A stretch of 51,454 bases of DNA from a virus: the IMG/VR virus record IMGVR_UViG_3300032299_001135, positions 1 through 51,454 of that record; one strand, written 5' to 3'. Positions within the stretch are counted from its first letter, which is position 1; the number at the start of each line of letters is the position of its first letter. Both the position numbers and the translations under genes were made by a program. This document shows positions 1,656 through 47,190 of this stretch, piece after piece. The notes under the pieces are model-generated. The model saw nothing but the letters and a program-made list of their open reading frames with translations. It did no database searches and was not told the origin of the DNA.

Positions 1656-1972
1656 TGGATTACTACAATAGATATAAAGACTTTATAATCAACGGGCAAC
1701 AAACGGTAGTTCCTTATGTAAATTTACCAATTAGACCTACTGACCAACAATACCTTTATTTAGTTGGTAAATCCCGTCTTGATAAAATTAGTTTTGAAAA
1801 ATACAGTACCCCATATTTCGGTTGGTTAATTTTAACCGCCAACCCTCAATACGGTGGTTTAGAATCAAATATTCCTGATGGTGCTATTTTACGTATACCA
1901 TTTCCATTAGTTAGTGCATTACAAGACTACAAATCCGCAGTAGATACACATATATTTTATTATGGCCGCTAG
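1655..1972 (+). CDS. LysM-like baseplate protein (gp53 / tail protein X type)
   Basis: This 105-residue protein has the short LysM-like fold pattern of P2 gpX, T4 gp53 and the XkdP C-terminus. An N-terminal strand region (VPYVNLPIRPTDQQYLYLVG) is followed by a C-terminal segment with ILTANPQYGGLESNIPDGAILR and IPFPL, the usual NP....IPxGxxLRIP signature. In contractile tails this protein ties wedges to the central hub. The start shares an A with the upstream stop (TAATG), which supports translational coupling, and its last 11 bases overlap the start of the hub gene. No signal peptide or membrane segment is visible. The family call is good; calling it gp53 specifically is an inference from position. 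Confidence 0.7.
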   Translation: MDYYNRYKDFIINGQQTVVPYVNLPIRPTDQQYLYLVGKSRLDKISFEKYSTPYFGWLILTANPQYGGLESNIPDGAILRIPFPLVSALQDYKSAVDTHIFYYGR

Positions 1973-30984: not shown

Positions 30985-33920
30985 TGGCTAATAAGATTTT
31001 TTTTCCTCCTGGTGGCGTTAAAACCTTTTCAGATAACTTAGTTGGCTTTCAGATAGTTGACGGTGGAGGACTTACGCAAGGTAATTTTCAATTTACAACA
31101 GCAATATACGAAAAGGATAATAGAACTTTCGATACTGGAATTTTCTCGGACGCATACACCTTAGAAAATTTAAAAATCGATGATATACAACAGGCAAAAA
31201 AAATTGTAGAGAAAAATTTCAAAGTATATCCAAATTTTGACTTGTCTGAAATCACAAGTTTTTCGCTGTATGGTTCATTAGCAAAAAGAATGTCAGCTTC
31301 CGCAATTAGAATACTCAACAACTTTCCTGCGGGTATAGAAATATACAACACACCTGTTTCGAATTTATATTCAGGACCAACTGCGTTCAATATTTCATAT
31401 GATGCAAAAAATGACGAGACAAGTATGACGTTAGACTGTGTCTTATTTAGAAACCCATTTCAAATTGACTATACCGTAAACGCTAAAAGAAATATTGAAG
31501 TACAACCATTTCCAATAAGTCGATATCGTGCACTTATTGAATATTATGAAAAATATTCTTTGTATTTTGAAGACCTACAAGTTGAATATCTTTTAACAGA
31601 CTTTGTCGCGGCATCTTCATTAAGTGCAAAAACAATTGATATTGTTGTACAGGGTAATCCATTTAGTGGTCAAACTTTTTATGGAGGACCTTTAATATTA
31701 AAACCATCGAACGAATTAACACAACAAATATTTGACGAAGAGTTAGATGAGGTAGAAAAGTTTTTATTGAATAGAAATACCACCCCAAAATACATGTCAA
31801 CTTTTGTATATCCTGATTATGGGTCTAATGGTAAAAAAACAATTTATACTGAAAAAATAGTTTGGCCACTTTCAGGTTTTTGGAATTTAGAAATAAATGG
31901 ACAAACATTTGACAAATATCTAAATGATTTACAGAGAATATCCGCAATTTTAGATGAGTATAAAACTAACCTGATAAGTAGATTTTTAGTAACGGGCTCG
32001 ATTAAAGAATTTGATACCCCCGACCAAAAAATTGAAAAAGTATTACAAATTTACGGTAGAGAATTTGATGAAGTTAAAAAGTTTATAGACGCATTGGCTC
32101 ACATGAACTCTGTAAATTATCAAGTTGGAAATGATATACCTTCACAACTATTATCTAATTTAGCTCAAACATTAGGTATTAATCCCAACATCTCACCTAT
32201 TACTACAGAAAATTTTATCGATTCAGTTTTCAATCCAAATCCCCAACAAATATATGCTGGTCAATCAGAAACACCAACACCAACAGAACTTAACTATCAA
32301 TACTACAGAAATGTAATTTTAAATTCGGCGTATATGTTTAAAACAAAGGGGACTAGAAAATCTTTAGAATATATAATGAGATTTATTGGTGCTCCTGATG
32401 CACTTTTAGAATTTAATGAAGTAATATATTTGGCAGACACAAAAATCAACACTACAAAGTTTGATGAACAGTTCGCTTCTATTTCTGGTGGAACAACTTT
32501 CATTCAAGAACCCACTTTAGATGCGACTAACACTTTTAGTATACAAGGAGTAACATACACAGGATACACAACATCAGGATTAATTAAATTAACCCCTAAA
32601 ACATTAGGTGATTATGGTATCGACTCAGATGGATATCCTAAAAATCCCACACCAACAGAAACTGACTTTTTTCAAAAAGGTGCGGGTTGGTTTGAAAAAT
32701 CTCCACAACATAGGTCTCCAGAAGTGGCAGACACCGCAAACTCATCATTTGACCCTAGCAACCCTTTTTTAGTTTCTACTTTAAAACCATTCTCATTTGG
32801 ACAAGAGTATATGAATAATTTTAGAAAATTCCCTGACATGAGAGTTGGTTATACTTTAACAAGAATTGCCGATAATCAAAAATCATGGGCGGTTGACCAA
32901 ACAGGAAATAGAAAAGACAACTCTAATTTTAATGGTGTTAATTATAAAGTTAATGATGATAAATTGGTTATTAATTCTAAAAATATTGAATTGTATGTAA
33001 ATGTTGGCCAAGGAATAACTTATGACATTTGGGATATGTCAGTAAAATATAATTACCCTATCCCAAATAGTGGATTAACATCACCATATCCATATCCTGG
33101 AAATGTTGATTGGACCTTCATAAATCCAAAACCAAAAGAAAAAACTTTTTTTGAGTTTGCTCAAGATTTTTATAATAATTTTATAAACGTTAGAAATAGA
33201 CAAACGATATTCGATGGTAAGACTGGAGGATACCCAACCTTACAATCTGTATTTTGGAATTACCTTCAATCTGAAGAAACGGTTGGATTACCGTCCAACA
33301 AGTTTACTTACCAAAAAATGATTGATTTTACTTTAGGTTTGGGTGACCATTGGCAACGATTGTTAGAACAAGTTGTACCCGGAACTACATTATGGTTGAC
33401 AGGACAAAAAATGGAAAACACAATTTTTCATAGACAAAAATTTGTTTGGAGAAGACAAAGAGGGTGTAGTTTTATACCTGTTGAATGTATACCATGTCGA
33501 TATAATGGACAACCATTCAGTTATGACTGTATTGACCAAACATTGACTTGTCAATTATCGGGTAATGGTCCTGATATCCTACAACAAACTTTAGCAGCAT
33601 TATTAAAAAATAGTGGGTATACTCAAAATCAGTGTGATTTGAATAGTTTGGTAACTAATTGGTTTATTGATTGTAGATTAGATAATCAAATACTAGTACA
33701 GTCCAACTTTTACACAGGTTACGGTTTGAACGATTACCCATCACAAACACAAATAATTAATTCGATAAATAGTGAGTTACAAGTATTGTATCAGTACGGG
33801 TTAAACTACTACTTGGCGGGTAATGAACTGATAGTTAGTAACTCTACTTGTTACGATAACTTTACAAATAGTTCTTTTAGATTAAATATAGGTATAAACA
33901 TTAGTATAAATTGTAATTAA
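30984..33920 (+). CDS. Large baseplate wedge protein with gpI/gp7-like region (978 aa)
   Basis: Residues about 332-480 resemble the helical core of phage tail protein I and T4 gp7 wedge arms: KFIDALAHMNSVNYQVGNDI, LAQTLGI, and then YRNVILNSAYMFKTKGTRKS followed by LEYIMRFIGAPDALLEF. The KGTRKSLEYIMRFIGAP pattern is the best evidence. The C-terminal third holds a paired Cys region (GCSFIPVECIPCRYNGQPF). The N-terminal 320 residues are beta-rich and carry a short repeat-like start (MANKIFFPPGGV). Length is close to T4 gp7 (1032). It is TAATG-coupled on both sides, directly ahead of the SprB-repeat adhesin, suggesting it may help mount the fibres. Confidence 0.58.
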   Translation: MANKIFFPPGGVKTFSDNLVGFQIVDGGGLTQGNFQFTTAIYEKDNRTFDTGIFSDAYTLENLKIDDIQQAKKIVEKNFKVYPNFDLSEITSFSLYGSLAKRMSASAIRILNNFPAGIEIYNTPVSNLYSGPTAFNISYDAKNDETSMTLDCVLFRNPFQIDYTVNAKRNIEVQPFPISRYRALIEYYEKYSLYFEDLQVEYLLTDFVAASSLSAKTIDIVVQGNPFSGQTFYGGPLILKPSNELTQQIFDEELDEVEKFLLNRNTTPKYMSTFVYPDYGSNGKKTIYTEKIVWPLSGFWNLEINGQTFDKYLNDLQRISAILDEYKTNLISRFLVTGSIKEFDTPDQKIEKVLQIYGREFDEVKKFIDALAHMNSVNYQVGNDIPSQLLSNLAQTLGINPNISPITTENFIDSVFNPNPQQIYAGQSETPTPTELNYQYYRNVILNSAYMFKTKGTRKSLEYIMRFIGAPDALLEFNEVIYLADTKINTTKFDEQFASISGGTTFIQEPTLDATNTFSIQGVTYTGYTTSGLIKLTPKTLGDYGIDSDGYPKNPTPTETDFFQKGAGWFEKSPQHRSPEVADTANSSFDPSNPFLVSTLKPFSFGQEYMNNFRKFPDMRVGYTLTRIADNQKSWAVDQTGNRKDNSNFNGVNYKVNDDKLVINSKNIELYVNVGQGITYDIWDMSVKYNYPIPNSGLTSPYPYPGNVDWTFINPKPKEKTFFEFAQDFYNNFINVRNRQTIFDGKTGGYPTLQSVFWNYLQSEETVGLPSNKFTYQKMIDFTLGLGDHWQRLLEQVVPGTTLWLTGQKMENTIFHRQKFVWRRQRGCSFIPVECIPCRYNGQPFSYDCIDQTLTCQLSGNGPDILQQTLAALLKNSGYTQNQCDLNSLVTNWFIDCRLDNQILVQSNFYTGYGLNDYPSQTQIINSINSELQVLYQYGLNYYLAGNELIVSNSTCYDNFTNSSFRLNIGINISINCN

Positions 33921-36211
33921 TGGCGTGTGTTTCAGGTTTAACTAACGGATATTTTTACTACGTAGATTGTTGCGGAGTTACAAGAACAGGAGCATCACTT
34001 GGTCAAAGTGTTTGTATTGATAGTGCTCTATCAGGAACTTCATTTGGTATTGTCATTGCGACAGGTCAAACCTGTTCACAAAACTGTATACAAGGGGCTT
34101 TAGATTACACATTTCAAGTAACGGGAGTATGTAGTACAGCGACAGGTAGTGTTACATTTAATCCATTTGGAGGTGCTGCTCCTTACACAATAGATAATAT
34201 CATACCCGGAACCATCACCGCTCAGACAAGTTACAATCCAATAACATTTACAGGATTAACCGAAGGTGTATATGTATTTAGATTAAATGATACCCTTGGA
34301 TTACAAAATAATGAACTCTATATAAATGTCGCAGTCACTGAATGTTTTGAGGCACGTATATTTGCTTCAGGTACTACTTGTGGGTTAGATAATGGTTCAC
34401 TACAAGTAAGTGCATCAACAACAGGGTCACCTTATACTATTATATTATACCAAAATGGTTCTGTATATGATGTTGAAACTACAAGTGTATTACCATATAC
34501 ATTTACAGGATTACAAGATGGTATTTACTACGCCACGGTTGTTGATTACGGTGCGACAACAGCAAACACAGAAAACGGAGTTATAAGTGCAAGTACTGCT
34601 GTGAATTTTGGTTTTTGGAAAGTTGATACTTCTAATTGTGTAACTAATTGGGGTAAATTGGCGGTCACGGGAATTACAGGTACTGGACCATATACATATT
34701 TGTGGAGCAATGGGCAAACAAGTCAAGTTATTACGGGTTTAACTCAAGGGGTATATACATGTACAGTAACAGATAGTCTTGGATGTCAAACTACTTTATC
34801 TGAAACTGTTGGGGCTGCAACCCCCATGAGTTTGGCATTACTAACCGCAAATAGCCCAACTTGTTTTTCTTCAGATGGTTCATTAACATTTACAATAAGT
34901 GGAGGTAGCGGTCCTTATTATTATTCTGCCAATACATCACAAGTTGGATACACATTATCCGACACTTTTACAATAACAGGACTTACAAGTGGTAATTATC
35001 AAGTATTAGTTACAGATGCAAGTTTATGTAATATATTGTTGAACGGAAATCTAAGTTCACCAAATGGTTTTAGTGTTGCGTCTGTAAATGTAACAGGGTC
35101 TAATTGTAATGTGAGTAATGGTCAAATAGATGTAACTATACAAGGGGTTAGTGGTTTTTATAGTTACACTCTTTCAGGACAAAATACAAATACACTATCA
35201 ACCACCACAACACAAAACTTAACTGAAAGTTTTACAAATCTACCTAACGATACTTATTATTTAACAATTTCAGCGAGTGGAACCAACTGTGTATATACAA
35301 ACACCTACACCGTTTCATCTATTCCTAAATTTTCAATAAGTTTACAAACAACAGGTGCAACTTGTAGTCAAACTAATGGTATTGCTATTGTTAATGTTTC
35401 AACGGGGTATACATCACCTTTAGATTATGTTTTAAGTAATGGTAACACAATTATTGACACACCATTAAGTTCTATAACTTATAATAATTTAACTTCAGGT
35501 TCTTATACAATTACAGTTACAGACACGGATGGATGTGCGGTTTCTTCAGGTTTTACAATTAACACGGGTGGTGGTATTACAGCTTCGGTAGCAACCACTA
35601 ATTGTACGGGGTTAAATGATGGTACTGCAACTGTTGTGATAAACGCAGGAACACCACCATTTTCATACCTATGGTCAAATAGTCAAACAGGTTCCTCTAT
35701 TTCTAATTTGGCAGCCGGACAATATAGTGTTGATATTACAGATAGTACGGGTTGCACTTTAACACAATATTTTAATATAACTTGTTTAGGAACAAACGTT
35801 GCAAACTATGAAATATTTAATGTTTGTTCAAATACGTTTATAACATCAACAGGCAACCAAAGAGGTTTGGCCGAAATGTTAAATGAAGGTTATTTGGATT
35901 TAATTTCAGGTTATACAAATTGTGTTTTTAATAGTGCTGAATTGGTTTGTGAAATAATTGTAAGCGGAGTTACATATTCACAACCATTTTACACCGCCAC
36001 AACACTTAATGATGTGCCTCAAGATTCATTATGGCAATCAACAATCGAACAAATATTAGACACTATACCACAAATCTCAAGTTACAATATTGATTTGTTA
36101 AATAACACATTAACTGTTATTTCAACGTGTAGTGGTGATGACGACCCATTGGCCGATGAAGATTTTACTTTAGGGTTAGAAATAACTTATGACATTGTTT
36201 GTGGTATATAG
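33920..36211 (+). CDS. SprB-repeat adhesin / receptor-binding protein (763 aa)
   Basis: The protein contains about seven SprB-type repeats of 60-90 residues, each starting near a Cys (C....NGS), with a GG..PY.Y.W core and ending in GxYxVxVTDxxGC. The clearest are at about 237-297 (TGPYTYLWSNGQTSQVITGL, GVYTCTVTDSLGC) and 565-625 (NDGTATVVINAGTPPFSYLW). SprB repeats are typical of gliding-motility adhesins of Flavobacteriia. The N-terminus has GYFYYVDCCG, a Cys motif also echoed in the other adhesins here. The last 130 residues are a different, non-repeated domain ending in an acidic stretch. A fibre or receptor-binding role is inferred from repeat type and location just after baseplate genes. 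Confidence 0.72.
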   Translation: MACVSGLTNGYFYYVDCCGVTRTGASLGQSVCIDSALSGTSFGIVIATGQTCSQNCIQGALDYTFQVTGVCSTATGSVTFNPFGGAAPYTIDNIIPGTITAQTSYNPITFTGLTEGVYVFRLNDTLGLQNNELYINVAVTECFEARIFASGTTCGLDNGSLQVSASTTGSPYTIILYQNGSVYDVETTSVLPYTFTGLQDGIYYATVVDYGATTANTENGVISASTAVNFGFWKVDTSNCVTNWGKLAVTGITGTGPYTYLWSNGQTSQVITGLTQGVYTCTVTDSLGCQTTLSETVGAATPMSLALLTANSPTCFSSDGSLTFTISGGSGPYYYSANTSQVGYTLSDTFTITGLTSGNYQVLVTDASLCNILLNGNLSSPNGFSVASVNVTGSNCNVSNGQIDVTIQGVSGFYSYTLSGQNTNTLSTTTTQNLTESFTNLPNDTYYLTISASGTNCVYTNTYTVSSIPKFSISLQTTGATCSQTNGIAIVNVSTGYTSPLDYVLSNGNTIIDTPLSSITYNNLTSGSYTITVTDTDGCAVSSGFTINTGGGITASVATTNCTGLNDGTATVVINAGTPPFSYLWSNSQTGSSISNLAAGQYSVDITDSTGCTLTQYFNITCLGTNVANYEIFNVCSNTFITSTGNQRGLAEMLNEGYLDLISGYTNCVFNSAELVCEIIVSGVTYSQPFYTATTLNDVPQDSLWQSTIEQILDTIPQISSYNIDLLNNTLTVISTCSGDDDPLADEDFTLGLEITYDIVCGI

Positions 36212-36490
36212 ATGGCGTATGACGTAACAATATCAGGAATTACAGGAGGAACTCCACCATACACTTTATATGTTTGTGATGAATATGGTAATAATTGTCA
36301 ATTACTAGGCTCAACAGGAGGAACATTTGTACTATCATCACTATTTCAAACTGCAGATACTTTGATGTTTAAAATAGTAGATTCTACTTTATGTGAATAT
36401 TTCGAAATAGTAAGTTGTCCTCTTGGGTATTTATTACAAGAGAACGGATTTTACATATTACAAGAAGACGGTTTTAGAATATATTTATAA
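36212..36490 (+). CDS. Small Ig-like fibre module, paralogue 1 (92 aa)
   Basis: The protein is a single SprB-like half module: ISGITGGTPPYTLYVCDEYG, then FKIVDSTLCEYF. It ends in two tandem octads, YLLQENGF-YILQEDGF. It is clearly related to the N-terminal 70 residues of the 171-residue protein at 36615 and to the 95-residue protein at 40864. It starts directly after the stop of the SprB-repeat gene. A virion role as a fibre tip or decoration subunit is inferred from context. Confidence 0.6.
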   Translation: MAYDVTISGITGGTPPYTLYVCDEYGNNCQLLGSTGGTFVLSSLFQTADTLMFKIVDSTLCEYFEIVSCPLGYLLQENGFYILQEDGFRIYL

Positions 36491-36492
36491 CT

Positions 36493-36615
36493 ATGGATAT
36501 ATGGTTAGCAATAAATGAAAATAATGTTAGATTAGGGATTAATTATCGGGGTACAGAATCTAGTCCGAACAGACCTGCAATTCCATCAGTAATAGTAACG
36601 TTAACACAAGTATAA
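36493..36615 (+). CDS. Very small fibre-locus ORF (40 aa)
   Basis: The ATG at 36493 opens a 40-codon frame ending TAA at 36613-36615, whose last A is the first base of the next ATG (TAATG). The product starts MDIWLAINENNVRLGINYRG and ends IPSVIVTLTQV. Two things support translation: the gap would otherwise be an unusual 124 bases in a tightly packed locus, and the TAATG coupling is the same as at other gene pairs here. No homology is recognised; it could be a remnant of a larger fibre protein. Confidence 0.45.
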   Translation: MDIWLAINENNVRLGINYRGTESSPNRPAIPSVIVTLTQV

Positions 36616-37130
36616 TGATAATTCAAATAACCGGAGTTACAAGTGGTACAAGTCCATATGATATATTTTTATGTACATGGGATTTGAATAATTGTTTTTT
36701 TGTATCGGGCAGTGTTTCAATACCACCAACTGTTCAAATAGATTCTGATAATTTTTTTCCAAATGAGGACTTACTTCAATTAAAAATTATAGATGGAAAC
36801 GGATGTATATTTACAGAACCATTACCATGTACCGCAACACCAACTCCCACACCTACCCCTACTCCAACACCTACACCATCACCAACACCAACAAACACAC
36901 CAATACCAACACCTGAACCAACTCCAACACCAGTACCATGTCTACAGTATACTGTTTATAATCCTAATACTAATATGTTAGAATTGAATTTTGAACCATG
37001 TTGTGGTGAGGTTAATGTTTCACCATATGGTTTAGTGGGAAAAACAACTTTGAGTTTTTGTTCAACATCATACCCAACAACAAGTACATCCTCTACAATT
37101 ACTCTTTTAGGAAATTGTCCTTCTTGTTAA
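36615..37130 (+). CDS. Fibre module with Pro-Thr linker and CxxC-capped domain (171 aa)
   Basis: Three parts are visible. Residues 1-70 are a small Ig-like module (ITGVTSGTSPYDIFLC, then LKIIDGNGCIF) paralogous to 36212 and 40864. Residues 73-108 are a mucin-like Pro-Thr linker with a few Ser, Asn, Ile and Glu substitutions. Residues 109-171 are a Cys-rich beta module (CLQYTVYNPN, EPCCGEV) ending in CPSC, the same type of ending as in the adhesins at 39264 and 42755. The glycosyltransferase gene follows 44 bases later. Likely a virion adhesin whose linker could be an O-glycosylation target (inference). Confidence 0.6.
   Translation: MIIQITGVTSGTSPYDIFLCTWDLNNCFFVSGSVSIPPTVQIDSDNFFPNEDLLQLKIIDGNGCIFTEPLPCTATPTPTPTPTPTPTPSPTPTNTPIPTPEPTPTPVPCLQYTVYNPNTNMLELNFEPCCGEVNVSPYGLVGKTTLSFCSTSYPTTSTSSTITLLGNCPSC
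36831..36939 (+). repeat. Pro-Thr linker repeat, tract 1
   Basis: Imperfect ACNCCN hexamers encode residues 73-108 of the 171-residue protein. Codons for Pro and Thr are mixed, so the repeat is stronger in protein than in DNA. Confidence 0.85.
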
Positions 37131-37145
37131 TTTATTATTGTTTTT

Positions 37146-37153
37146 TATTTATT
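37146..37153 (+). promoter_or_regulatory. TATTTATT element before the GT60-like gene
   Basis: TATTTATT lies 21 bases upstream of the glycosyltransferase ATG, in an A/T-only leader. It suggests that the two glycosyltransferases form their own transcription unit. Confidence 0.38.
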
Positions 37154-37174
37154 TGAAATTATAATTTTTATATT

Positions 37175-38422
37175 ATGAAAATTTTTATTCAAATTGCATC
37201 CTATCGGGACCCCGAACTCGAACCAACAATAAAAAATTGTTTAGAAAACGCTAAATACCCTGAAAATTTAGTTTTTGGTATTTGTAGACAATACCACCCT
37301 GAAGATAAGTTTGACGAACTTCAAGAATTTCGTGAAGATAATAGATTTAAATTTGTAGATGTTTTATACAACGAAACAAAAGGTGCCTGTTGGGCAAGAA
37401 ACCAAATACAACAACTATACAACGAGGAAGAATATACCTTACAGTTAGACTCACACATGAGATTTGAAAAAAATTGGGACGAAACACTTGTTGATATGTA
37501 CGAACAACTAAAAAGTAAAGGTGTAGAAAAACCACTTCTCACTACGTATGTACCATCCTATGACCCAAAAAATGACCCACAAGGAAGAGTAAATGTTCCG
37601 TGGAGAATGGCATTTGATAAATTTATTCCTGAAGGTGCTGTTTTTTTCTTACCTGAGACTATACCTGATTGGAAAGAGATACAAGAACCAGTACCTGCAA
37701 GATTTTATTCGGCACATTTTTGTTTTACTTCAGGAGATTTTGCAAAAAATGTCCAACACAATCCTGATTTTTATTTTCATGGAGAAGAAATATCTATTGC
37801 CGTAAGAGCATTTACTCACGGTTACGATTTGTTTCACCCACATAAAGTTGTGATTTGGCATGAATACACAAGAAATGGAAGAACAAAACATTGGGACGAC
37901 GATAAAGAATGGTGGAAACTTAATGAAAATGCACACCAACTAAATAGAAAGTTGTTCGGAATGGATAATAACCAACAAGAAGGTCATAATGGAAAGTATG
38001 GATTTGGTAATAAAAGAACTCTTAGAGATTATGAAAAATATTCAGGTTTACTTTTTGAAAAAAGGTCAGCACAACAATATACTTTAGAAAAAAAATACCC
38101 ACCAAACCCATATAATTATAACACCGAAGAAGAGTGGATTGATAGTTTTACAAAATTAATGAACTTCACAATTAGAGTTGAAAAAAACAAATTTGACAAA
38201 ACGGATTATGACTTTTGGGCTGTAATTTTCACAGATGACATAGGATATGAAATATCAAGAAAAGATTGTAATCAGGGTGAAATTAGAACTTTATTAAATG
38301 ACAGTATTGATTTTGTTCATATACAAAGAGAATTTAATACTGCAATAAACCCCACAAAGTGGGTTGTTTGGCCACATTCAACAACTGAAGGTTGGTTAGA
38401 AAGATTAGAAGGAAATTTATGA
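37175..38422 (+). CDS. GT60-type (GlcNAc) glycosyltransferase
   Basis: This is a predicted cytoplasmic GT-A sugar transferase. It matches the GlcNAc family (GT60): IQIASYRDPELEPTIKNCLE at the N-terminus, then NETKGACWARNQIQQLY and the metal-binding LQLDSHMRF (D92-S93-H94), then FHGEEISIAVRAFTHGYDLF (H202, E204, E205) and IWHEYTR. Family members elsewhere add GlcNAc to hydroxyproline (Skp1) or Thr (mucins) of proteins. The C-terminal 100 residues (from about 310) look like an added beta domain (DFWAVIFTDDIGYEISRKD). It overlaps the next putative glycosyltransferase by ATGA. Neighbours on both sides encode Pro-Thr-rich virion proteins, the obvious candidate acceptors; host glycans remain an alternative. 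Codon use is like its neighbours. Confidence 0.78.
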   Translation: MKIFIQIASYRDPELEPTIKNCLENAKYPENLVFGICRQYHPEDKFDELQEFREDNRFKFVDVLYNETKGACWARNQIQQLYNEEEYTLQLDSHMRFEKNWDETLVDMYEQLKSKGVEKPLLTTYVPSYDPKNDPQGRVNVPWRMAFDKFIPEGAVFFLPETIPDWKEIQEPVPARFYSAHFCFTSGDFAKNVQHNPDFYFHGEEISIAVRAFTHGYDLFHPHKVVIWHEYTRNGRTKHWDDDKEWWKLNENAHQLNRKLFGMDNNQQEGHNGKYGFGNKRTLRDYEKYSGLLFEKRSAQQYTLEKKYPPNPYNYNTEEEWIDSFTKLMNFTIRVEKNKFDKTDYDFWAVIFTDDIGYEISRKDCNQGEIRTLLNDSIDFVHIQREFNTAINPTKWVVWPHSTTEGWLERLEGNL

Positions 38423-39210
38423 TACAAAATCCAACAATAGTCACAGCACTCTTTAACATTGGAAGAGATAAATGGGACAACTACCAACAAGGATATGATA
38501 CTTACTTAAATTGGATGACAAGTCTTTTAATGTATGAAACCAATATGGTTATTTATACCGATGATAGTTTATATGAAACTATTTTAAATAAAAGAAAAGA
38601 CTGTGACCCAAACTTAGAAAAGACAATTATTGTTTTAAAAAAAATTGAAGAATTAGAATCACATAAACTTTTTTTCACAGAAGTGGAAAATTTGATGATG
38701 TCTGAAGAATTTAAAAAAAGAGTCATCTTTCAAGTTCCTGAAATGACAAAACCTTTATATAACATAGTTATTTTTAATAAGTTATTTTACATATTAGAGT
38801 CAATTAAAAAAAATCACTTCAACTCTGACTTTTTTATATGGTTAGATGCAGGTGTACTTAGAAATTATTCACAAGAAAAAATAACAGGTTGGCCAAATTT
38901 GAATAAAATAAATGATGGTTATACCGATAAGATTACTTTTTTTAATCATCAAGAAAAAACACCATACATTGACCCATATTTACACATCATGTCACAATAT
39001 AGATTTATTCATGGAGGGTCTATATTTGTACCAAACAACAACTCAATAGATAAATTACTTGATACTTTTTTAAACTTAATAAGACATTATTTAAATGAGG
39101 GTTATGTTGGTAGTGAAGAAAAATATTTAGACCTGTGTTATCTAAAAAATCCCGAAGACTATAATGTCATAAAATGTGATTGGAGACAATATTTTGAAAT
39201 ATTTGACTGA
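38419..39210 (+). CDS. HtrL/YibB-like putative glycosyltransferase
   Basis: The protein (263 residues from the ATG at 38419) resembles the HtrL/YibB family, found near LPS and capsule genes: PTIVTALFNIGRDKWDNYQQ at the start, an IYTDDS strand, PEMTKPLYNIVIFNKLFYI, and SDFFIWLDAGVLRN, which carries the likely GT-A metal motif. IHGGSIFVPNNN follows. I chose 38419 because it gives an ATGA overlap with the GT60-like gene and begins just before the conserved PTIVTALF; an upstream in-frame ATG at 38392 lies inside the previous gene and adds only basic residues. It probably extends or branches the sugar begun by its partner, or acts on a host glycan. Family call fair, acceptor unknown. Confidence 0.65.
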   Translation: MIQNPTIVTALFNIGRDKWDNYQQGYDTYLNWMTSLLMYETNMVIYTDDSLYETILNKRKDCDPNLEKTIIVLKKIEELESHKLFFTEVENLMMSEEFKKRVIFQVPEMTKPLYNIVIFNKLFYILESIKKNHFNSDFFIWLDAGVLRNYSQEKITGWPNLNKINDGYTDKITFFNHQEKTPYIDPYLHIMSQYRFIHGGSIFVPNNNSIDKLLDTFLNLIRHYLNEGYVGSEEKYLDLCYLKNPEDYNVIKCDWRQYFEIFD

Positions 39211-39236
39211 TTTAATTAATAAATCAAAAATATTGT

Positions 39237-39244
39237 TATTTATA
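39237..39244 (+). promoter_or_regulatory. TATTTATA element before the Pro-Thr-rich adhesin gene
   Basis: TATTTATA lies 19 bases upstream of the ATG at 39264, in the 53-base gap after the glycosyltransferase pair. Confidence 0.38.
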
Positions 39245-39263
39245 TAATAAAGTTAAATTCTAA

Positions 39264-40862
39264 ATGGCAAATGTAATTTTTAGTAGTTGTTGTTATAACC
39301 TTGTGTATAGTGCAACAAGTTTTTTTGGTATTACTGCTGTTGGTACTGTTCACAGCGTTAGTGGTCAGACAAACATGCCTAATGGATGTTATACGATTGT
39401 TTCTGGCGTTACCGGAACATCAATAACTTTTGAAGGGACTTCTACGGTCGTTACAGGTTGTACCAGTCCACAATGTTTAAGTTGTTGTCCTCAAAATTTA
39501 TGTTTAAATATTCAAAATAGTACTTATTCGGGTTATAGTGGAACGTACAGTATTAAAGGTGGTTACAACAGTCGACCTTATTGGACTGGAGGTACTGGAT
39601 TATTAGGATACATTTATTATAATAATATAAATTGGTGTTTAAGTAATAGTTTAGGTGGTACTTGTTATTTCTTTGGGTCTAATCCAAATACCGCAATATG
39701 TCCTGATTTAGATGAGTCAATTATGTATTTTGGAACTTGCGTACCCTCACCTACACCAAATGACCCATGTAGTGATTTAGATTTTGATGTAGTTTTAAAC
39801 TGCGATTTTCCAACTCCAACACCAACACCCACTCCTACCCCAACGCCAACACCCACTCCAACACCAACTCCAACTGTTGATGTTTGTAGAGATTTTGTAG
39901 CTAATATAACTTTATCTTACCCAACACCAACACCGTCACCTACACCATCACCCACACCTACACCAACACCTACCGTTATACCATCTGCGGATACTGTTAC
40001 ATTTGTTGTTGATAGTGGTTATTTTGAGTGCGCAACAGTTAAGGAACTTGTTGACTGTACTAATAATAACAAATATTATGTTAGTGGACCTCTTCTACTT
40101 ACAGGTTCTACAGCGACTACAATAACATTAACAGGTACAACGATACAGGCAATTATTAACGGAGATTTTGTTTGTGCGACATACACACAAAACATTATGG
40201 GAAGTGCGAATGCATTTGTACAATATGTTATAACTGCATATACGGACTGTGCGATTTGTGTTTCAGCACTACCGACACCAACACCTACACCAACGGCAAC
40301 TCCAACACCTACACCAACGGCAACACCAACACCTACACCGACACTCGCACCTGGAACTACCTTTGTATTTACTTCATGTACAACTAATAGTATGATATTA
40401 CAAACGGCGTATCCACCTACAGGATTATCGGTTGGTCAAATTTTGAAAACAACATCAGGAGACTGTTACTCATACGTTGGAAATTATATAAACTATGTTG
40501 CTCCGTCAGGTTACATCGTTGCAACTGTAAATCAATTTACAGCAACAACTGCGACAACATACACTACATGTTTAGAATGTTTAACCGTGACAACACCAGT
40601 AAACACATATACCGAATGGACAGGTAAAGGAGGATATTCTTTGAATTGTCCTGTATGTCAAATTACAGATTATGGAAAACCATTAACATTCTATACAACA
40701 AATGTAGTTACAACATTATCAACAGGAGATTGTATCTTCCAAGATAGTTCACTTACAACACCAATAAGTGAAGACTTTATTCAGTATGGAAATTATATAT
40801 ATAGTGTGGATAAAAACGGATTTATAACACAATATTGTAGATTAAACGGAAATTGTAAGTAA
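39264..40862 (+). CDS. Cys-rich, Pro-Thr-linked modular adhesin (532 aa)
   Basis: The protein is a string of small modules and mucin-like linkers. Residues about 7-76: Cys-rich beta module ending CLSCC. About 78-170: a domain with [15 protein letters not shown] and [13 protein letters not shown]. 183-204: eleven uninterrupted Pro-Thr pairs. About 207-219: a short Cys-containing segment. 220-237: Pro-Thr/Ser linker. About 241-335: Cys module ending CAIC. 336-362: Pro-Thr/Ala linker. About 365-440: Cys module ending CLEC. The rest is a C-terminal domain with further Cys (CPVCQ). There is no signal peptide or membrane helix, as expected for a virion protein. Its position right after two putative glycosyltransferases makes the Thr-rich linkers likely acceptors (inference). 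No named family recognised. Confidence 0.65.
39810..39875 (+). repeat. Pro-Thr linker repeat, tract 2 (11 perfect PT pairs)
   Basis: Twenty-two codons encode eleven consecutive Pro-Thr pairs. Three Pro codons and all four Thr codons are used, so the DNA itself is not a perfect tandem repeat. Confidence 0.9.
39921..39975 (+). repeat. Pro-Thr/Ser linker repeat, tract 3
   Basis: Hexamer-like CCNACN/TCN units encode residues about 220-237, with Ser replacing some Thr. Confidence 0.85.
40270..40350 (+). repeat. Pro-Thr/Ala linker repeat, tract 4
   Basis: The unit CCTACACCAACGGCAAC occurs twice, 24 bases apart, and gives a PTPTPTAT period. It is the most DNA-regular of the four tracts and thus the likeliest to change length. 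Confidence 0.85.
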
Positions 40863-40863
40863 G

Positions 40864-41151
40864 ATGCCAATATTAGTAACAATTAATACAATCACTTCAG
40901 GAGCGTCCCCATATGACGTTTGGGTTTGTGATGATTGTACAACTGCAGGTACTTGTCAATATATAAACACAATAACAACAGTACCGTATAGTTTTACATT
41001 ACCTACTATTTTTGAAACATACCCAACTTATGTTATAAAAATAATAGATAATAACGGTTGTATTTATTGTAGCGACCAATGTTTTTCAAAACAGTTTCAA
41101 AATGGAGATTGTATGGAATTTATGGACGGAGTATATTATGATTTTCAATAA
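40864..41151 (+). CDS. Small Ig-like fibre module, paralogue 3 (95 aa)
   Basis: The protein is related to the products at 36212 and 36615: INTITSGASPYDVWVCDDC, then YVIKIIDNNGCIYCSDQC. Six Cys (CDDC, C, CIYC, C) plus one near the end are more than in the paralogues, suggesting disulfides or metal binding. It ends MEFMDGVYYDFQ. It starts two bases after the Pro-Thr-rich adhesin stop and is followed after 24 bases by the YadA-head-like fibre, so it is part of the adhesin set. Confidence 0.6.
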   Translation: MPILVTINTITSGASPYDVWVCDDCTTAGTCQYINTITTVPYSFTLPTIFETYPTYVIKIIDNNGCIYCSDQCFSKQFQNGDCMEFMDGVYYDFQ

Positions 41152-41175
41152 AATAAAAAATGTTTTAAATAAGAA

Positions 41176-42753
41176 ATGGCAAAATTAACATCAAGGACAT
41201 TAGCAACAGGAGCAACGTTGAATGACCTTATACACATTGTAATAACAGGAGATACGTCTCAAAGTATTGATGGTTCATCATATAAAGCGACATTAAGACA
41301 ATTAGTACCTTTATTCGGAGGTTCACCTGATGTATTTGTAACAGGGGGAACATCTAATTCTTCAGGAGGAACTATAACTTTTAGAAATACAACGGGAGGT
41401 ACTTTTACGGTATCAGGACTAACTACACCATTTACAGGTGGTCCAAGTAATTGTATTACAAGTTTTTATACAAATAATATTCACGCATGTTTAAATGAAA
41501 TAACAGTACACAATAGAGTTCAATCTACAGGGTCTGACGCTCAAAATACATTGAGTTTTGCTTTTGGAAATAATGTACAAGCATTAAGTAATTATAGTCA
41601 TGCTGAAGGTGTAGATACAATCGCTTCGGGAACCACATCACATGCCGAAGGGTCTAACACAAAGTCTTTTGGTGAATTTTCACACTCCGAAGGGACTAAT
41701 ACAAGAGCAGGGACAAATAATGCGTATTTAGCAACAGGATTAACATCGGGAGTACTTTATTTAAGTGGTGTATATGGAAACGTAACAGCAAATTACACTA
41801 ATAATGAATTTATTTGGATTCATGATTCACCTTTTGGTGGTTCTTTGACAGATGATTTCAAAAAAGTTTCAGGAACAACATTTAGTGGAGGTAGGACTAT
41901 TGTATACCTTTATGATAATACACTTTCAGCAACTAACAATCTATATGTTGGTGATACGAATACACCTGACTTTTGGGGAGGTAATCAAACCGCAGGAGGT
42001 AAAAGTGCATCTGTAAAAGGTTTCGCGTCTGGAGCAATTGGGACCAACTCATTTGCGGGAGGACAAGGAAGTTATTCTTTTGGTTGGAACACATTTACAA
42101 CAAATAAAGGTAATAAAGTTTTTGGAAACTCGTCTTCAGCATTTGGAACTACAAATAAAGTTTATGGAACTAGTTCATCGTCATTTGGAGATAGTAATAA
42201 AATAGAAGCAAATATCGGGTTTTCTATAGGTAATGTTAATGAAATATACGGAGATAGAAGTTTTCTTGGTGGTAATAGTTGTATTTCAAACGGAGATACG
42301 AGTTTTGGATTTGGTCAACAAAATACAATAAACGGTGAATTAGGAGCAATTTTGGGAGGTGCTTTGAACACTATCCAATCAGGTACAACTGAAAACTCTG
42401 TAATATTAGGTGGAGAACTTAATAAAATATCAGGAACAACACCATCAGACCCATGCTATAATTCATCTATATTAGGTGGTTCAGGAAACGATGTTAAATA
42501 TTTTAATTCAGCAATAGTTGGCAGTGAAAATTCAACATTAGTAGCAGACCATTCAGTAATTTTGGGAGGTATTTCAATTTCAGGAACTCAGTCTGAAACG
42601 GCATATGTTCCTAAATTTGTAATTAAAACAAGTTTTACACCATCAGGAACAACAGACCCAACTGGTGAAGTGGGTCAAATAACATACGACGCAACATACC
42701 TTTATTTCAGAGGGACTGGTGGTTGGAAAAGATTAAGCGGGGCAACTTGGTAA
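41176..42753 (+). CDS. YadA-head-like repeat tail fibre (525 aa)
   Basis: The N-terminus (LTSRTLATGATLNDLIHIVI) looks like a fibre attachment segment. Residues about 131-182 carry left-handed beta-roll repeats of the YadA/Hep_Hag head type (NYSHAEGVDTIASGTTSHAEG split over two turns, then FSHSEGTNTRAG). Residues about 275-465 continue with degenerate turns of SxxxGxxNxIxG form (SAFGTTNKVYGTSSSSFGDS; NSVILGGELNKISG). A globular insertion lies at about 183-270. The last 30 residues (GQITYDATYLYFRGTGGWKR) resemble a conserved fibre C-terminal tip. A trimeric fibre is expected from the repeat type. Receptor binding is inferred. Confidence 0.7.
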   Translation: MAKLTSRTLATGATLNDLIHIVITGDTSQSIDGSSYKATLRQLVPLFGGSPDVFVTGGTSNSSGGTITFRNTTGGTFTVSGLTTPFTGGPSNCITSFYTNNIHACLNEITVHNRVQSTGSDAQNTLSFAFGNNVQALSNYSHAEGVDTIASGTTSHAEGSNTKSFGEFSHSEGTNTRAGTNNAYLATGLTSGVLYLSGVYGNVTANYTNNEFIWIHDSPFGGSLTDDFKKVSGTTFSGGRTIVYLYDNTLSATNNLYVGDTNTPDFWGGNQTAGGKSASVKGFASGAIGTNSFAGGQGSYSFGWNTFTTNKGNKVFGNSSSAFGTTNKVYGTSSSSFGDSNKIEANIGFSIGNVNEIYGDRSFLGGNSCISNGDTSFGFGQQNTINGELGAILGGALNTIQSGTTENSVILGGELNKISGTTPSDPCYNSSILGGSGNDVKYFNSAIVGSENSTLVADHSVILGGISISGTQSETAYVPKFVIKTSFTPSGTTDPTGEVGQITYDATYLYFRGTGGWKRLSGATW

Positions 42754-42754
42754 G

Positions 42755-44341
42755 ATGGGATTATTAAGTGGAAATAGTTGTAATATAATAACATTATTCC
42801 CTTTGGGAGTTGAATGTAATGCAATAAATTCTTCGACACCTGAATCATCAAATGGTGTTGTAACTTTATTTGTTACCGGAGGAACACCACCATATAATAT
42901 TACTTGGAATAATGGTGGTCAAGGAAATCTTTTAACAAATCTTAGACCTGGCGAATATACCGCAACTGTGGTTGATTATTATGGTGATTTTAGTGCAACT
43001 ACAACTTGCGAAGTTGGATATGATAGTTTTTATTTGGAACAATTTGAAAGTTGTACAACACCTGGTTCGTATCTTTATTATATTGCGGACATGATGAAAC
43101 CTTTCACGGCTGGTACAATTTATACACTTTCTTCACAAGTTGGTTGTTGGACAAGTAGTGGTCAAACACTTTATACGGGACAAACATATATCACAACAAT
43201 TGCAACGTCCTCCGCGGGTCCTTTCACGGGGTGTACACAGTGTTTACCAACACCAACACCTGTACCTGTTTACCCGAGTAATTTGTGTTTACAACAAACT
43301 CAAAACAATACAACAACACAATACAATTTTGCGTCAGGTAATACTATAAACGGGTACCCTTCTTGGACAAGTGTAACACCAAGTTATACTATGTATTATA
43401 ATACAGGAACTACACAATGGACGGTAAGTGGTTGGACAAATGGTACTATATATAATCAGACTAACAACATCCCACCAACAGGAGGTTGGGTTATAACTGG
43501 ACCAAACGCCTTTAACACTAGTATAAATGTTGTTACAGGAACATGTCCAAATCCACCACTCATAATACAAGTACAGCCAACGGGACCGAGTTGCTCAACT
43601 AATAATAATGGTAGTGCGACAATAGTTGGGTACGGTGGAGTACCGTCATACACATATTCATTGGATGGGGTTAATTATCAAATTTCAAGTGTCTTTTTAA
43701 ATTTAGCTGTTGGTTCATATACCGCATACATCAAAGATTCTTTAGGGACGGTTACAAGTCAAAGTTTCACAATAACCGCACAAGTGAATTTCCAAAACTA
43801 TAATGTTAGTTTAACCTTAACTCCTGGTAACCCAACAGTTGTTGGAAACGCACTAACAAAAACTTCACAGTGGTCAATTACACTTTCACCGACACCATTA
43901 CCTGCTGGTGTAACGGTCAATATGAATCTTACATTTAACATCAACTCAACAGGGTACACATCATACTTTGATGTTCCTGTAATAACAAACACTATAACAA
44001 CAAGTACAAACCCTAATGCTACTGTAACATTAATCTCTACGGGTACAACTTCAGGTTCTTCTTCTGTAAGACCTAATTGTTTAAGTAGTTTTATAAATGT
44101 GAGTGCGAGAACACAATCTTACACAGTACAATTAAACACTAATGGTTTCGCATCAGGAACGATAGTCCAATATATAAGCACACCTTGTCACGAATTACCT
44201 AATTGTCCAATATATGGAAATTTAGTAGATACAATTATATTATCTAACATTACTATTACACCAGCACAATGTAGGTCTATTAGTCAAAATGTGCAACCTA
44301 AACAAGTTTCTCTAACAAAAACAGGATTAAGTTGTTTATAA
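42755..44341 (+). CDS. Adhesin with SprB-like repeats and a CxxC-capped module (528 aa)
   Basis: Two SprB-like repeats are visible: residues about 27-90 (SNGVVTLFVTGGTPPYNITW, GEYTATVVDYYGD) and about 272-345 (GSATIVGYGGVPSYTYSLDG, GSYTAYIKDSLG). Between them is a Cys module ending CTQC at about 160-163, a short Pro-Thr spacer (LPTPTPVPVYP), and a domain with NLCLQQTQNN and GYPSWTSVTPSYTMYY. The last of these is the same type as in the 39264 protein. The C-terminal 180 residues are another beta domain with few repeats. It thus shares modules with both other large adhesins, suggesting shuffling. Receptor-binding role inferred. Confidence 0.65.
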   Translation: MGLLSGNSCNIITLFPLGVECNAINSSTPESSNGVVTLFVTGGTPPYNITWNNGGQGNLLTNLRPGEYTATVVDYYGDFSATTTCEVGYDSFYLEQFESCTTPGSYLYYIADMMKPFTAGTIYTLSSQVGCWTSSGQTLYTGQTYITTIATSSAGPFTGCTQCLPTPTPVPVYPSNLCLQQTQNNTTTQYNFASGNTINGYPSWTSVTPSYTMYYNTGTTQWTVSGWTNGTIYNQTNNIPPTGGWVITGPNAFNTSINVVTGTCPNPPLIIQVQPTGPSCSTNNNGSATIVGYGGVPSYTYSLDGVNYQISSVFLNLAVGSYTAYIKDSLGTVTSQSFTITAQVNFQNYNVSLTLTPGNPTVVGNALTKTSQWSITLSPTPLPAGVTVNMNLTFNINSTGYTSYFDVPVITNTITTSTNPNATVTLISTGTTSGSSSVRPNCLSSFINVSARTQSYTVQLNTNGFASGTIVQYISTPCHELPNCPIYGNLVDTIILSNITITPAQCRSISQNVQPKQVSLTKTGLSCL

Positions 44342-44356
44342 AAAAGTAAAAAAGAA

Positions 44357-44364
44357 TATTTATT
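44357..44364 (+). promoter_or_regulatory. TATTTATT element before the fibre/collar-like gene
   Basis: TATTTATT ends 4 bases before the ATG at 44369. If it is a -10-like element the transcript would begin inside the gene, so here it may be fortuitous or the start may be downstream. Confidence 0.25.
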
Positions 44365-44368
44365 TTAT

Positions 44369-46579
44369 ATGTCATACATACTGAAAAATACCGCAGCATT
44401 AATTAACACACTAACCACTGACGCTGCGAGAAAGAAAATTTCTCAAGGTAAATTCGATATATCATATTTTCAAATAGGTGATAGTGAAGTTTGTTATAAT
44501 TGTATTAGTGGTTTGGACCCTGTACAATACAATGTCTTGATGCCACAATTCAATACACAAAACTTAGCACCTGTTCCACAAAAAAACAGATTAGAAGTAA
44601 AGTACCCAATCTTTTTGGACTCAACTTCAGGAAGTACTTACGGTATCCCTTTTGACGCATCATATATAGATAGCGTTTATAATACGGCAGCACCAAGAGG
44701 TTTCTTTACTGGTACCACAGGAACTCCTGCGGTATACAGTGCTTATACAACAACAGCATTAACTATAAACCCTAATTTTGTAATAAATAATACAGGTATA
44801 ACTTCAGGTACCGTATTTACATTAACCGCAAATACAATTAACGCATCAACATCAGGTACTGTTACACCGGGTATGTTTATGATGGTTTTCACTAATGGAA
44901 GTGTCACACCATTCTCAGGTGCGGGTCCAATGTTTACTTATTTAGTTGTTGGTGTAACAGGAAACACTTCAACTGCAACTACAGTCTCAGTACGAGTTGA
45001 TAGACAAATACCAAATTTTGGTTCGATGGGGTTAAGTGGTAATTCACGTGTTATGTTTTATCCAAGTGGAATGACTGCTCTTTACGACACATTTACACCA
45101 GCACCTTTTTGGGCAAACGATGTCATTAACTTTGAAACTAATTGTGACGTAGCACAAAGAGATGTATATGTTTGGAACATGAACATACCATGGACAGAAT
45201 CACCGGCAGGTTTATTCAGTAATACCTTTGAAGATTTTAATAAATTCAAATCCACAGGATACACAGGCTCAAAAGAATATTTTGGATACAAAAGTAGTGC
45301 AGCTCAATTAGATACGGACTCAGTATATTATTATAATTCTTTTGCTGAAAAAATAACAGTAACACCTGAAGAACAAAAAGCAATTGCAATTATTCATTAT
45401 ACAAATCAATCTATTGATAATTTCTATGGTGAAAAATTCGCACAAGAGGATTATGACGCAACTAATCCTGGTGGTACAGGACAAGCTCGAAACTTCAAAC
45501 TGTCTATTCCGTGGTTAATGTGGCATAAGAACTCAAGTAAAGTTATGGGTGAAGAATTTTTTACAGACCCATCAGGCTTTACAAACTTAAATCTATTTGA
45601 ACCCCACTATATTGAGTCTAAAAGAGACCCTGAATTTAACGAACCTGGTATGAGATATTACCACCTTTGGGACAGACATGCTAATAGTAATGGATACCCT
45701 AATAGAGTTGGTAAAGTTTTTCCTGATTATAAAATGATTATTTTTGATGATGAGGAGTTGGTTGCGGCACTTAATTATAAATCCAACAGGTCATGGACAT
45801 TACCAGCACCTAAATTAGGTTTAGTAACTCCAAACACATTTGGAGGAGTTTTAGGTGGAACGGTAGGATTATTATCAGGTAATACCGAAACACTTTATTT
45901 AACGTATGTATTTTCTAACACCGCATTTACAAACTCATTACATTGTAATTATTACACAACAATTTCAGGAAATGACCAAAGTTTGTTACCGGGAGCTTCG
46001 GACATTTTAGTTAGATTTGGAAATGAGTTTCCTTTTTTACAATCAAGTTTTACAACTCCAAGTGGATTTACAGCAAATCAAGTAAGGTTAATTGCACAAA
46101 AAGTGTCAAGTGGAACAACAAGACCAATCGCCACAGCATGGAAAGAAATTAATATTATGTCACAATTGTCGGCAACTACTGTTGGAGGATTTTTGACTCA
46201 AACAGGAATGACAGGAACCACAATTCAATTGACTAAAAATATGTATGATACCGCAGGTACTTATAATTTAAATAACTATATAAATTTAGTTCCTATTGGT
46301 GCGACAGGTCTGACTTTAAATTTTGGGGGTGAGTATTTCTTTTTTGGTAATATTCAAACAGATATTCAAGCCACAATTTATGTGATGAACTTTTTATGTA
46401 ACTTAGGACAAACACAGTTTTTTGATTCATCTAACCCAACATGGGACGGTACAACACCACCTTACGTTACAGAGGTTGCTCTTTACAACGCAGACAAAGA
46501 ACTTATGGTTATATCGAAGATACAGTCACCTGAAAAAAGACAAGGAATACAACAGTATCCGATTAAGTTAGATTTTTAG
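44369..46579 (+). CDS. Tail fibre / baseplate-associated structural protein (736 aa)
   Basis: The N-terminus (LTTDAARKKISQGKFDISYF, then QIGDSE) resembles the attachment domain of phage tail-fibre and collar proteins (LT..GR..I..G...I..F.LGD). The C-terminus (YVTEVALYNADKELMVISKI then QSPEKRQGIQQYPIKLDF) is a conserved ending I associate with structural proteins of large myoviruses. The middle is beta-rich, with a Gly/Thr-rich stretch at about 115-220 that could be a shaft or inserted domain. A run of PWTESPAGLFSN, FGYKSS and ISIPWLMWHK-like segments suggests a compact core. It closes the adhesin locus; the next gene is a nuclease. Confidence 0.6.
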   Translation: MSYILKNTAALINTLTTDAARKKISQGKFDISYFQIGDSEVCYNCISGLDPVQYNVLMPQFNTQNLAPVPQKNRLEVKYPIFLDSTSGSTYGIPFDASYIDSVYNTAAPRGFFTGTTGTPAVYSAYTTTALTINPNFVINNTGITSGTVFTLTANTINASTSGTVTPGMFMMVFTNGSVTPFSGAGPMFTYLVVGVTGNTSTATTVSVRVDRQIPNFGSMGLSGNSRVMFYPSGMTALYDTFTPAPFWANDVINFETNCDVAQRDVYVWNMNIPWTESPAGLFSNTFEDFNKFKSTGYTGSKEYFGYKSSAAQLDTDSVYYYNSFAEKITVTPEEQKAIAIIHYTNQSIDNFYGEKFAQEDYDATNPGGTGQARNFKLSIPWLMWHKNSSKVMGEEFFTDPSGFTNLNLFEPHYIESKRDPEFNEPGMRYYHLWDRHANSNGYPNRVGKVFPDYKMIIFDDEELVAALNYKSNRSWTLPAPKLGLVTPNTFGGVLGGTVGLLSGNTETLYLTYVFSNTAFTNSLHCNYYTTISGNDQSLLPGASDILVRFGNEFPFLQSSFTTPSGFTANQVRLIAQKVSSGTTRPIATAWKEINIMSQLSATTVGGFLTQTGMTGTTIQLTKNMYDTAGTYNLNNYINLVPIGATGLTLNFGGEYFFFGNIQTDIQATIYVMNFLCNLGQTQFFDSSNPTWDGTTPPYVTEVALYNADKELMVISKIQSPEKRQGIQQYPIKLDF

Positions 46580-46584
46580 TCCTT

Positions 46585-47190
46585 ATGAGTCAAAAACATG
46601 ATTTAAAAAATTCTCCAAAAGTTCTTGGATTAGATATTTCCACAAAAACAATTGGGTGGAGTTTGTTTGATATACAAACAAAAGAGTTATTGGAACTTAC
46701 ACATTTCTCACCTGTAATTAAACCAAAACAAGAAAATAAAATTCAAGAATTACTAATGAAAGTAGTGGCTTTTGAGGAAAAGTTAAATGGATACAAAAAT
46801 TTAGGGATAACAAAAGTTGTAATTGAAGAACCATTATTAAATTCAAACAATGTATGGACTGTCGGAACACTTCTTAGATACAATTCGATGATTACAAAAT
46901 CAATTTACGACATTTTGGGAATAGTTCCCGATTATATTTCAACTTACAACTCAAGAAAATTTGCTTGGCCTGATTTAATTCAAAAAAATGATAAAAACAA
47001 ATTTGTATTGTTTGGTGGATTACCAAAAGATGTGGATAAAAAAGAATTGATTTGGAAAAAAGTCTCAGATAAAGAACCACAAATTAGATGGTTATATACA
47101 AAAAACAATACTTTGAAAAAAGAATGTTTTGATATGGCAGATTCATACACTTGTGTTTTGGGTCACATGAAAGAAACAAAAATTTGGTAA
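46585..47190 (+). CDS. RuvC-like Holliday junction resolvase
   Basis: This RNase H-fold endonuclease is predicted to cut recombination or replication junctions before packaging. Acidic active-site residues are in the expected order: D17 (KVLGLDISTKTIGWS), E81 or E82 (VVIEEPLLN), and D183/D186 (CFDMADSYTCVLG). Length is 201, a little longer than bacterial RuvC (about 170). T4 itself uses the unrelated endonuclease VII (gp49), so this is a non-orthologous replacement. It follows the fibre gene by 5 bases and precedes a 46-base gap with a TATTTATA element. Confidence 0.8.
   Translation: MSQKHDLKNSPKVLGLDISTKTIGWSLFDIQTKELLELTHFSPVIKPKQENKIQELLMKVVAFEEKLNGYKNLGITKVVIEEPLLNSNNVWTVGTLLRYNSMITKSIYDILGIVPDYISTYNSRKFAWPDLIQKNDKNKFVLFGGLPKDVDKKELIWKKVSDKEPQIRWLYTKNNTLKKECFDMADSYTCVLGHMKETKIW

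Follow-up and report, generated by a model that had tools for sequence, protein, structure and literature searches.

Why should a tailed phage carry two glycosyltransferase genes in the midst of the genes for its own adhesins? The question is raised by a 51,454-base IMG/VR virus record (IMGVR_UViG_3300032299_001135), analysed over its whole length and called the window below, in which a GT60-type gene and an HtrL/YibB-like gene lie between two adhesin-like genes encoding proline-threonine (PT) tracts. The answer that we favour, and hold to be rather probable, is that the GT60 enzyme transfers an N-acetylhexosamine (HexNAc) in the cytoplasm to the phage's own adhesins, likeliest on their PT linkers, that the HtrL-type enzyme then extends this glycan, and that both genes belong to an exchangeable cassette. 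That virions are glycosylated by an exchangeable cassette, in most cases with GT60 as its initiator, has good support; the Thr residues of the PT tracts are a plausible acceptor, and this aquatic phage probably sugar-coats its own host-binding proteins. The features concerned are the following.

36615..37130, + strand: adhesin-like protein with PT tract, 171 aa (open reading frame (ORF), relatives, tract analysis)
36831..36938, + strand: PT tract, interrupted (tract analysis)
37175..38422, + strand: GT60-type glycosyltransferase, 415 aa, proposed polypeptide HexNAc-transferase starting the glycan (PF11397, phrog_24687, AlphaFold2, motifs)
38419..39210, + strand: HtrL/YibB-like GT-A enzyme, 263 aa, proposed to extend the glycan (PF09612, AlphaFold2, PDB fold matches)
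39264..40862, + strand: adhesin-like protein with three PT tracts, 532 aa, proposed main acceptor (ORF, tracts, 42 of 42 homologues)
39810..39878, + strand: PT tract with eleven perfect PT pairs (position same in homologues)
39921..39989, + strand: PT tract (position same in homologues)
40272..40343, + strand: PT tract (position same in homologues)

The four ORFs follow each other on the + strand, and the gaps from the 36615 ORF onwards are 44, -4, 53 and 1 nt, the negative value being the ATGA overlap of the GT60 stop with the HtrL start (38419-38422). The ORFs, the sequence motifs, this overlap, the four PT tracts and the eleven PT pairs had all been named in the original prediction and were confirmed in the sequence.

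The 415 aa protein is, by sequence, a clear member of the GT60 family. It matches PF11397 at 5.2e-68 (230.5 bits against a curated cut-off of 21; best Pfam match over residues 53-295) and phrog_24687, already labelled glycosyltransferase, at 1.5e-164. The motifs QIASYRDPE, LDSHMRF and FHGEE are all present, and D92, S93, H94, G203, E205, H229 and E230 are invariant across 63 phage homologues. By the general features of GT27 and GT60 enzymes, D92, S93, H94, G203, E205 and H229 are taken to be the catalytic and metal-binding motifs (D-x-H, GEE and a later His). A search of the PDB by sequence gave no match for this protein. Its AlphaFold2 model (pLDDT 92.4) has as its top 41 PDB fold matches the polypeptide N-acetylgalactosamine (GalNAc) transferases of family GT27, the initiators of mucin-type glycosylation in animals, with E values down to 6.5e-11, many of them crystallised with mucin peptides. 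Because the TM-scores are about 0.5, the modelled likeness is one of shared fold and not of close kinship; the identity is about 12% and a different Pfam family is matched. The GT60 identity named in the original prediction is thus borne out, and the predicted fold is of the kind that acts on protein acceptors.

Characterised GT60 enzymes are polypeptide alpha-N-acetylglucosamine (GlcNAc) transferases of mucin domains and of Skp1, and lack the ricin-like domain of GT27 (PMC8724618, PMC6939170 for the activities; PMC8724618 for the domain). Soluble members act in the cytosol on Skp1, and others start mucin-type glycans in protists (PMC8724618, PMC6939170). The window enzyme shares with this group (Dictyostelium and Toxoplasma Gnt1, and the mucin-type enzymes of Trypanosoma cruzi and Dictyostelium; CAZy GT60/PF11397) the Pfam family, the DSH and GEE-type motifs, a predicted soluble GT-A fold, a Pro/Thr-rich candidate acceptor and, as in the Skp1 pathway, putative extension enzymes. 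It differs in being phage-encoded, in a C-terminal extension of about 100 residues beyond the best Pfam match, in the exchangeable cassettes within an adhesin locus, and in that no dedicated prolyl hydroxylase was found. By this analogy the enzyme would be expected to place GlcNAc on either Thr or hydroxyproline of a protein acceptor. A search for prolyl hydroxylases that covered the family PF13640 detected them in no more than 2 of 27 GT60 records, and because they are this rare Thr is preferred and a Skp1-type hydroxyproline acceptor was set aside as the chief reading.

The 263 aa protein encoded next to it matches PF09612 (HtrL_YibB; 5.4e-28, 98.8 bits against a cut-off of 24.1), and its model (AlphaFold2, pLDDT 93.2) has a GT-A fold with XXYLT1, LARGE1 and GT6 enzymes as PDB fold matches; by sequence, the PDB gave chance-level matches only. 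Because of the predicted GT-A fold this protein is probably a glycosyltransferase, despite the "unknown function" label of its family.

As for the candidate acceptors, one PT tract lies in the 36615 protein and three in the 39264 protein, and the tract at 39810-39878 opens with exactly eleven perfect PT pairs. When the residues were shuffled (5,000 times per protein) no more than 3 successive PT pairs arose, whereas the two real proteins reach 6 and 11. Every tract uses a mixture of codons for Pro and for Thr, so simple slippage of a DNA repeat was rejected as their origin. These two genes are the only PT tract carriers among the 38 called genes of the window, and the GT60 and HtrL genes lie between them, as the original prediction had it. 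The 36615 protein of many relatives consists only of its N-terminal part of about 95 aa, without the PT tract. The adhesin-like proteins of L133:20082-22064 and L146:17152-18870 are built of LTGNLDLTPLSGLGG-type repeats with near-identical units.

In order to see the locus in its relatives, the 978 aa and 736 aa structural neighbours were used as bait, so that loci were not selected by the presence of a glycosyltransferase; the slot was defined, by anchor labelling, as all genes between a PT-adhesin homologue and the first adhesin anchor upstream of it. Out of 42 distinct slot loci (36 through the structural bait, 6 through a glycosyltransferase bait), all 42 carry a glycosyltransferase in the slot and all 42 homologues of the 39264-40862 adhesin carry a PT tract. 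GT60 is found in 38 of the slots and a sialyltransferase-like GT29 in the other four. The simple cassettes are GT60 alone, GT60 with HtrL, and GT60 with GT34. Further types combine a GT60 of about 40% identity with a 265-274 aa protein that has a D-x-D-like motif and no Pfam match, or GT60 with DUF3431, two unassigned proteins and HtrL. In the last type the GT29 gene lies on the opposite strand (L133:16018-16608, - strand, PF00777 1.3e-17; likewise in L165, L166 and L176), with no GT60 on those fragments. Since different cassettes stand beside adhesins that are 93% identical (L171 and L175), the sequences indicate an exchange of cassettes next to an adhesin that is retained.

The original prediction, a GT60-HtrL pair decorating the Thr of fibre stalks, therefore stood only in part. 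The association of glycosyltransferase and PT tracts was upheld, while the pair is not fixed: HtrL is frequently missing or substituted, and GT29 can replace GT60 with the PT tracts retained, which is the strongest evidence that GT60 is not strictly dedicated to these tracts. The system is better described as an exchangeable virion-glycosylation cassette. In distant relatives without a nearby GT60, glycan enzymes are again found upstream of the PT adhesin: a methyltransferase-GT34 fusion in L223, GT4, methyltransferases and a hexapeptide acyltransferase in L226, and GT1, DXD sugar-binding and FkbM domains in L235. Others, such as L228, have no obvious glycan enzyme upstream of it. As every PT adhesin locus of the set has a glycosyltransferase, a contrast of loci with and without one is impossible within the lineage.

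The persistence of PT tracts beside GT29 also fits a different target, in which the cassette glycosylates virion adhesins mainly outside the PT tracts, on Ser/Thr of the adhesin domains or on collagen-like Gly-Thr-Ser tracts, and the PT tracts are unmodified spacers. Proteins with collagen-like GTSGTNGTS tracts, which may be alternative Thr/Ser-rich acceptors, do occur near GT60 in some slots (L097:15512-16303, L167:1977-2756), and in 11 of the 36 GT60 loci outside the lineage, described below, the fetched stretch contains no PT gene. Since all 42 PT adhesins of the lineage adjoin a glycosyltransferase cassette, and since GT60 enzymes and their GT27 cousins, whose fold the model matches, act on mucin-type domains (PMC8724618), we consider this target unlikely, though the most credible of the alternatives.

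The association with PT tracts is not confined to the window's own lineage. Of the 53 non-redundant GT60 loci, 36 come from elsewhere, and for 25 of these the fetched stretch includes a PT gene. At 15 of 52 loci the gene immediately upstream of GT60 is a PT gene; at a distance of seven or eight genes the share is 0-6%. PTPTPT-coding DNA was found in 26 of 27 GT60 records above 100 kb, including those of the phages XacN1 and RAS14, while the reversed pattern used as control matched just once in each of four records. On ten fully listed contigs, the distance to PT tracts is shorter from GT60 than from random positions (combined p = 0.0015). Conversely, GT60 was present on 10 of 41 PT contigs (at least 30 kb, with a five-pair tract) and on 0 of 28 controls picked by the reversed pattern (p = 0.004). 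The co-occurrence that had been predicted is thus borne out, and these figures support an association, not the identity of the acceptor. One contig (G025:C1:6137-8300, the contig of L122) carries a tandem pair of GT60 genes, with the closest strict PT tract about 11 kb away, and the adhesins near this pair (L122:12967-20695) contain very long ITPTPS/VTPT-rich stretches.

Downstream of GT60 these other loci carry GT25, GT10, GT34, GT1 and PLOD-type glycosyltransferases, FkbM and other methyltransferases and a carbamoyltransferase, and the last gene of such cassettes often encodes a protein of about 550-790 aa that includes HtrL. A constant first enzyme followed by variable later ones is the pattern that would be expected of an initiator and its extension enzymes. 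The HtrL fusions recurrent at the cassette ends (e.g. L020:13535-15214 and XacN1 ORF330, L001:20306-21946) have a second part of about 290-500 aa after the HtrL domain, with no other Pfam match in the one that was scanned.

Variability of this kind is also compatible with receptor masking, and the main rival from outside the virion is that the enzymes alter host surface sugars (lipopolysaccharide core or capsule) and thereby shut out competing phages, a role that has been proposed for the glycosyltransferase clusters of cyanophages and jumbo phages. For variable clusters of this sort, Iyer et al. 2021 propose that capsular polysaccharide is modified (PMC7824862), and HtrL-type genes are mentioned together with bacterial lipooligosaccharide outer-core loci in PMC4172580. 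In all 42 loci, however, the cassette is confined to the cluster of virion adhesin genes, GT60 has the predicted fold of a polypeptide transferase, and the GtrA flippase PF04138, detected in 7 of 14 control genomes, was found in 0 of 25 GT60 records. Together with the glycoproteins reported for XacN1 (PMC5852040), this makes a host-surface target improbable, slightly more so than sites outside the PT tracts. Glycosylation of phage DNA bases, in the manner of T4-type glucosyltransferases, is a known function of phage glycosyltransferases, and thymidylate-synthase-type genes, whose family includes dCMP hydroxymethylases, are present in 8 of 25 GT60 records. This family was not found in the other 17, many of them fragments; the GT60 family and fold indicate protein acceptors, and the cassette sits among adhesin genes, so that we regard a DNA target as very improbable indeed.

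The nearest counterparts among known phages are Xanthomonas phage XacN1 and the Stenotrophomonas phages RAS14 and CM1, whose GT60 proteins are 44-48% identical to that of the window over 98-99% (XacN1 ORF334, 47.7% over 99%). All three have an HtrL-like gene within about 6 kb of GT60, XacN1 and RAS14 have PT-coding tracts, and XacN1 carries in addition to its HtrL fusion (ORF330) a huge protein, ORF350, with a long PT/ST-rich region; PT tracts are present in its ORF325 too. They differ from the window in being jumbo phages of Proteobacteria, in the fusion of HtrL to a second domain and in that GT60 does not adjoin a PT gene (about 12 kb apart in XacN1). The XacN1 report describes proteomic evidence of at least two glycoproteins and suggests the phage glycosyltransferases as their makers (PMC5852040). 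The earlier statement that no phage with a GT60 enzyme for mucin-like fibres had been described was therefore not quite right. In mycobacteriophages (Che8 gp110, Corndog gp38, Myrna) glycosylation of the virion by dedicated phage enzymes is given as established in PMC12363180 and PMC12619734, citing Freeman et al. 2023; as in the system proposed here the phage-encoded enzymes act on the phage's own virion proteins, but the acceptors are the C-termini of capsid and tail-tube proteins and not PT adhesins. Large aquatic phages, for most of which Bacteroidota hosts are predicted, were surveyed in 2025, and four putative glycosyltransferases are listed there among the core genes, with their target unassigned (PMC12619734).

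From these data we infer the acceptor residue, the sugar, the order of steps and the benefit to the phage as follows. The soluble GT60 enzyme would move a HexNAc, probably GlcNAc from UDP-GlcNAc, onto Thr/Ser of the adhesins in the host cytoplasm, most likely at the PT linkers of the 39264 and 36615 products, and the HtrL/YibB-type enzyme would next add a further sugar. The outcome would be stiff, protease-resistant, sugar-coated stalks that space the adhesin domains apart, and swapping the second and later enzymes would alter the outer sugar. Several points weigh against this reading besides the four GT29 loci. PT linkers can serve as stiff spacers without sugar, and in 2 of 10 long contigs about 90 kb separate GT60 from the closest PT tract. 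No GT60 was seen on the recovered fragment of 31 of 41 PT contigs, and all co-occurrence figures are confounded by relatedness within lineages and by fragmentation. The main text of the XacN1 report names neither the glycosylated proteins nor the responsible enzyme (PMC5852040), and glycopeptide evidence on PT tracts was found for no phage, that of the window included.

Virion glycosylation has so far been documented in only a few phages, and what is added here is a widespread candidate system for which an initiator family can be named, together with a candidate acceptor and a slot whose cassettes are exchanged. More tentative, and in our judgement somewhat short of probable, is the general form of the proposal: a phage mucin-type O-glycosylation in which GT60 places HexNAc on the Thr of PT stalks and recombining later enzymes give near-identical adhesins lineage-specific glycan coats, diversifying virion glycans across aquatic phages. 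With the candidate system phages would have mucin-like stalks, virion glycan diversity would be predictable from sequence, and phages would be a source of soluble polypeptide glycosyltransferases working in the bacterial cytoplasm, with a bearing on the origin of the protist GT60 enzymes for mucins and Skp1. XacN1 is a cultured phage in which the system is testable.

The glycosyltransferase genes are part of a tight + strand run of adhesin-like genes (33920-46579) in which no gap exceeds 124 nt. Its other members close to the cassette are the following.

33920..36211, + strand: SprB-repeat adhesin-like virion protein, 763 aa, upstream in the same run (PF13573 SprB, 2.6e-17; upstream position kept in relatives)
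36212..36490, + strand: small adhesin-like protein, 92 aa (ORF; syntenic among relatives)
40864..41151, + strand: small adhesin-like protein after the PT adhesin, 95 aa (ORF; syntenic among relatives)

A shared motif suggests that the 36212 protein is paralogous to the N-termini of the 36615 and 40864 proteins. ORFs were called naively, with ATG starts, a procedure which small genes or genes with GTG or TTG starts may escape. Scans for promoters and terminators gave matches at the level of shuffled sequence. Elsewhere the window has T4-like tailed phage genes (a gp6-type baseplate wedge, UvsX, gp32, a DnaB-type helicase and ribonucleotide reductase), and a Bacteroidota host is suggested by the SprB repeats in its adhesins. 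Named phages gave no close DNA match to the window and no tblastn match to the PT adhesin or to the 978 aa structural protein. A scan of bacterial genome contigs for its origin found no relative, using exact peptide patterns by which only close relatives are detectable. A 2,423 aa ORF (1962-9233) has no PHROG match. Just downstream of the adhesin run, a 201 aa protein (46585-47190) without Pfam match has PKVLGLDISTKTIGWSLFD near its start and is by motif RuvC/RNase H-fold nuclease-like; its gene is kept right after that of the 736 aa adhesin, distant relatives included.

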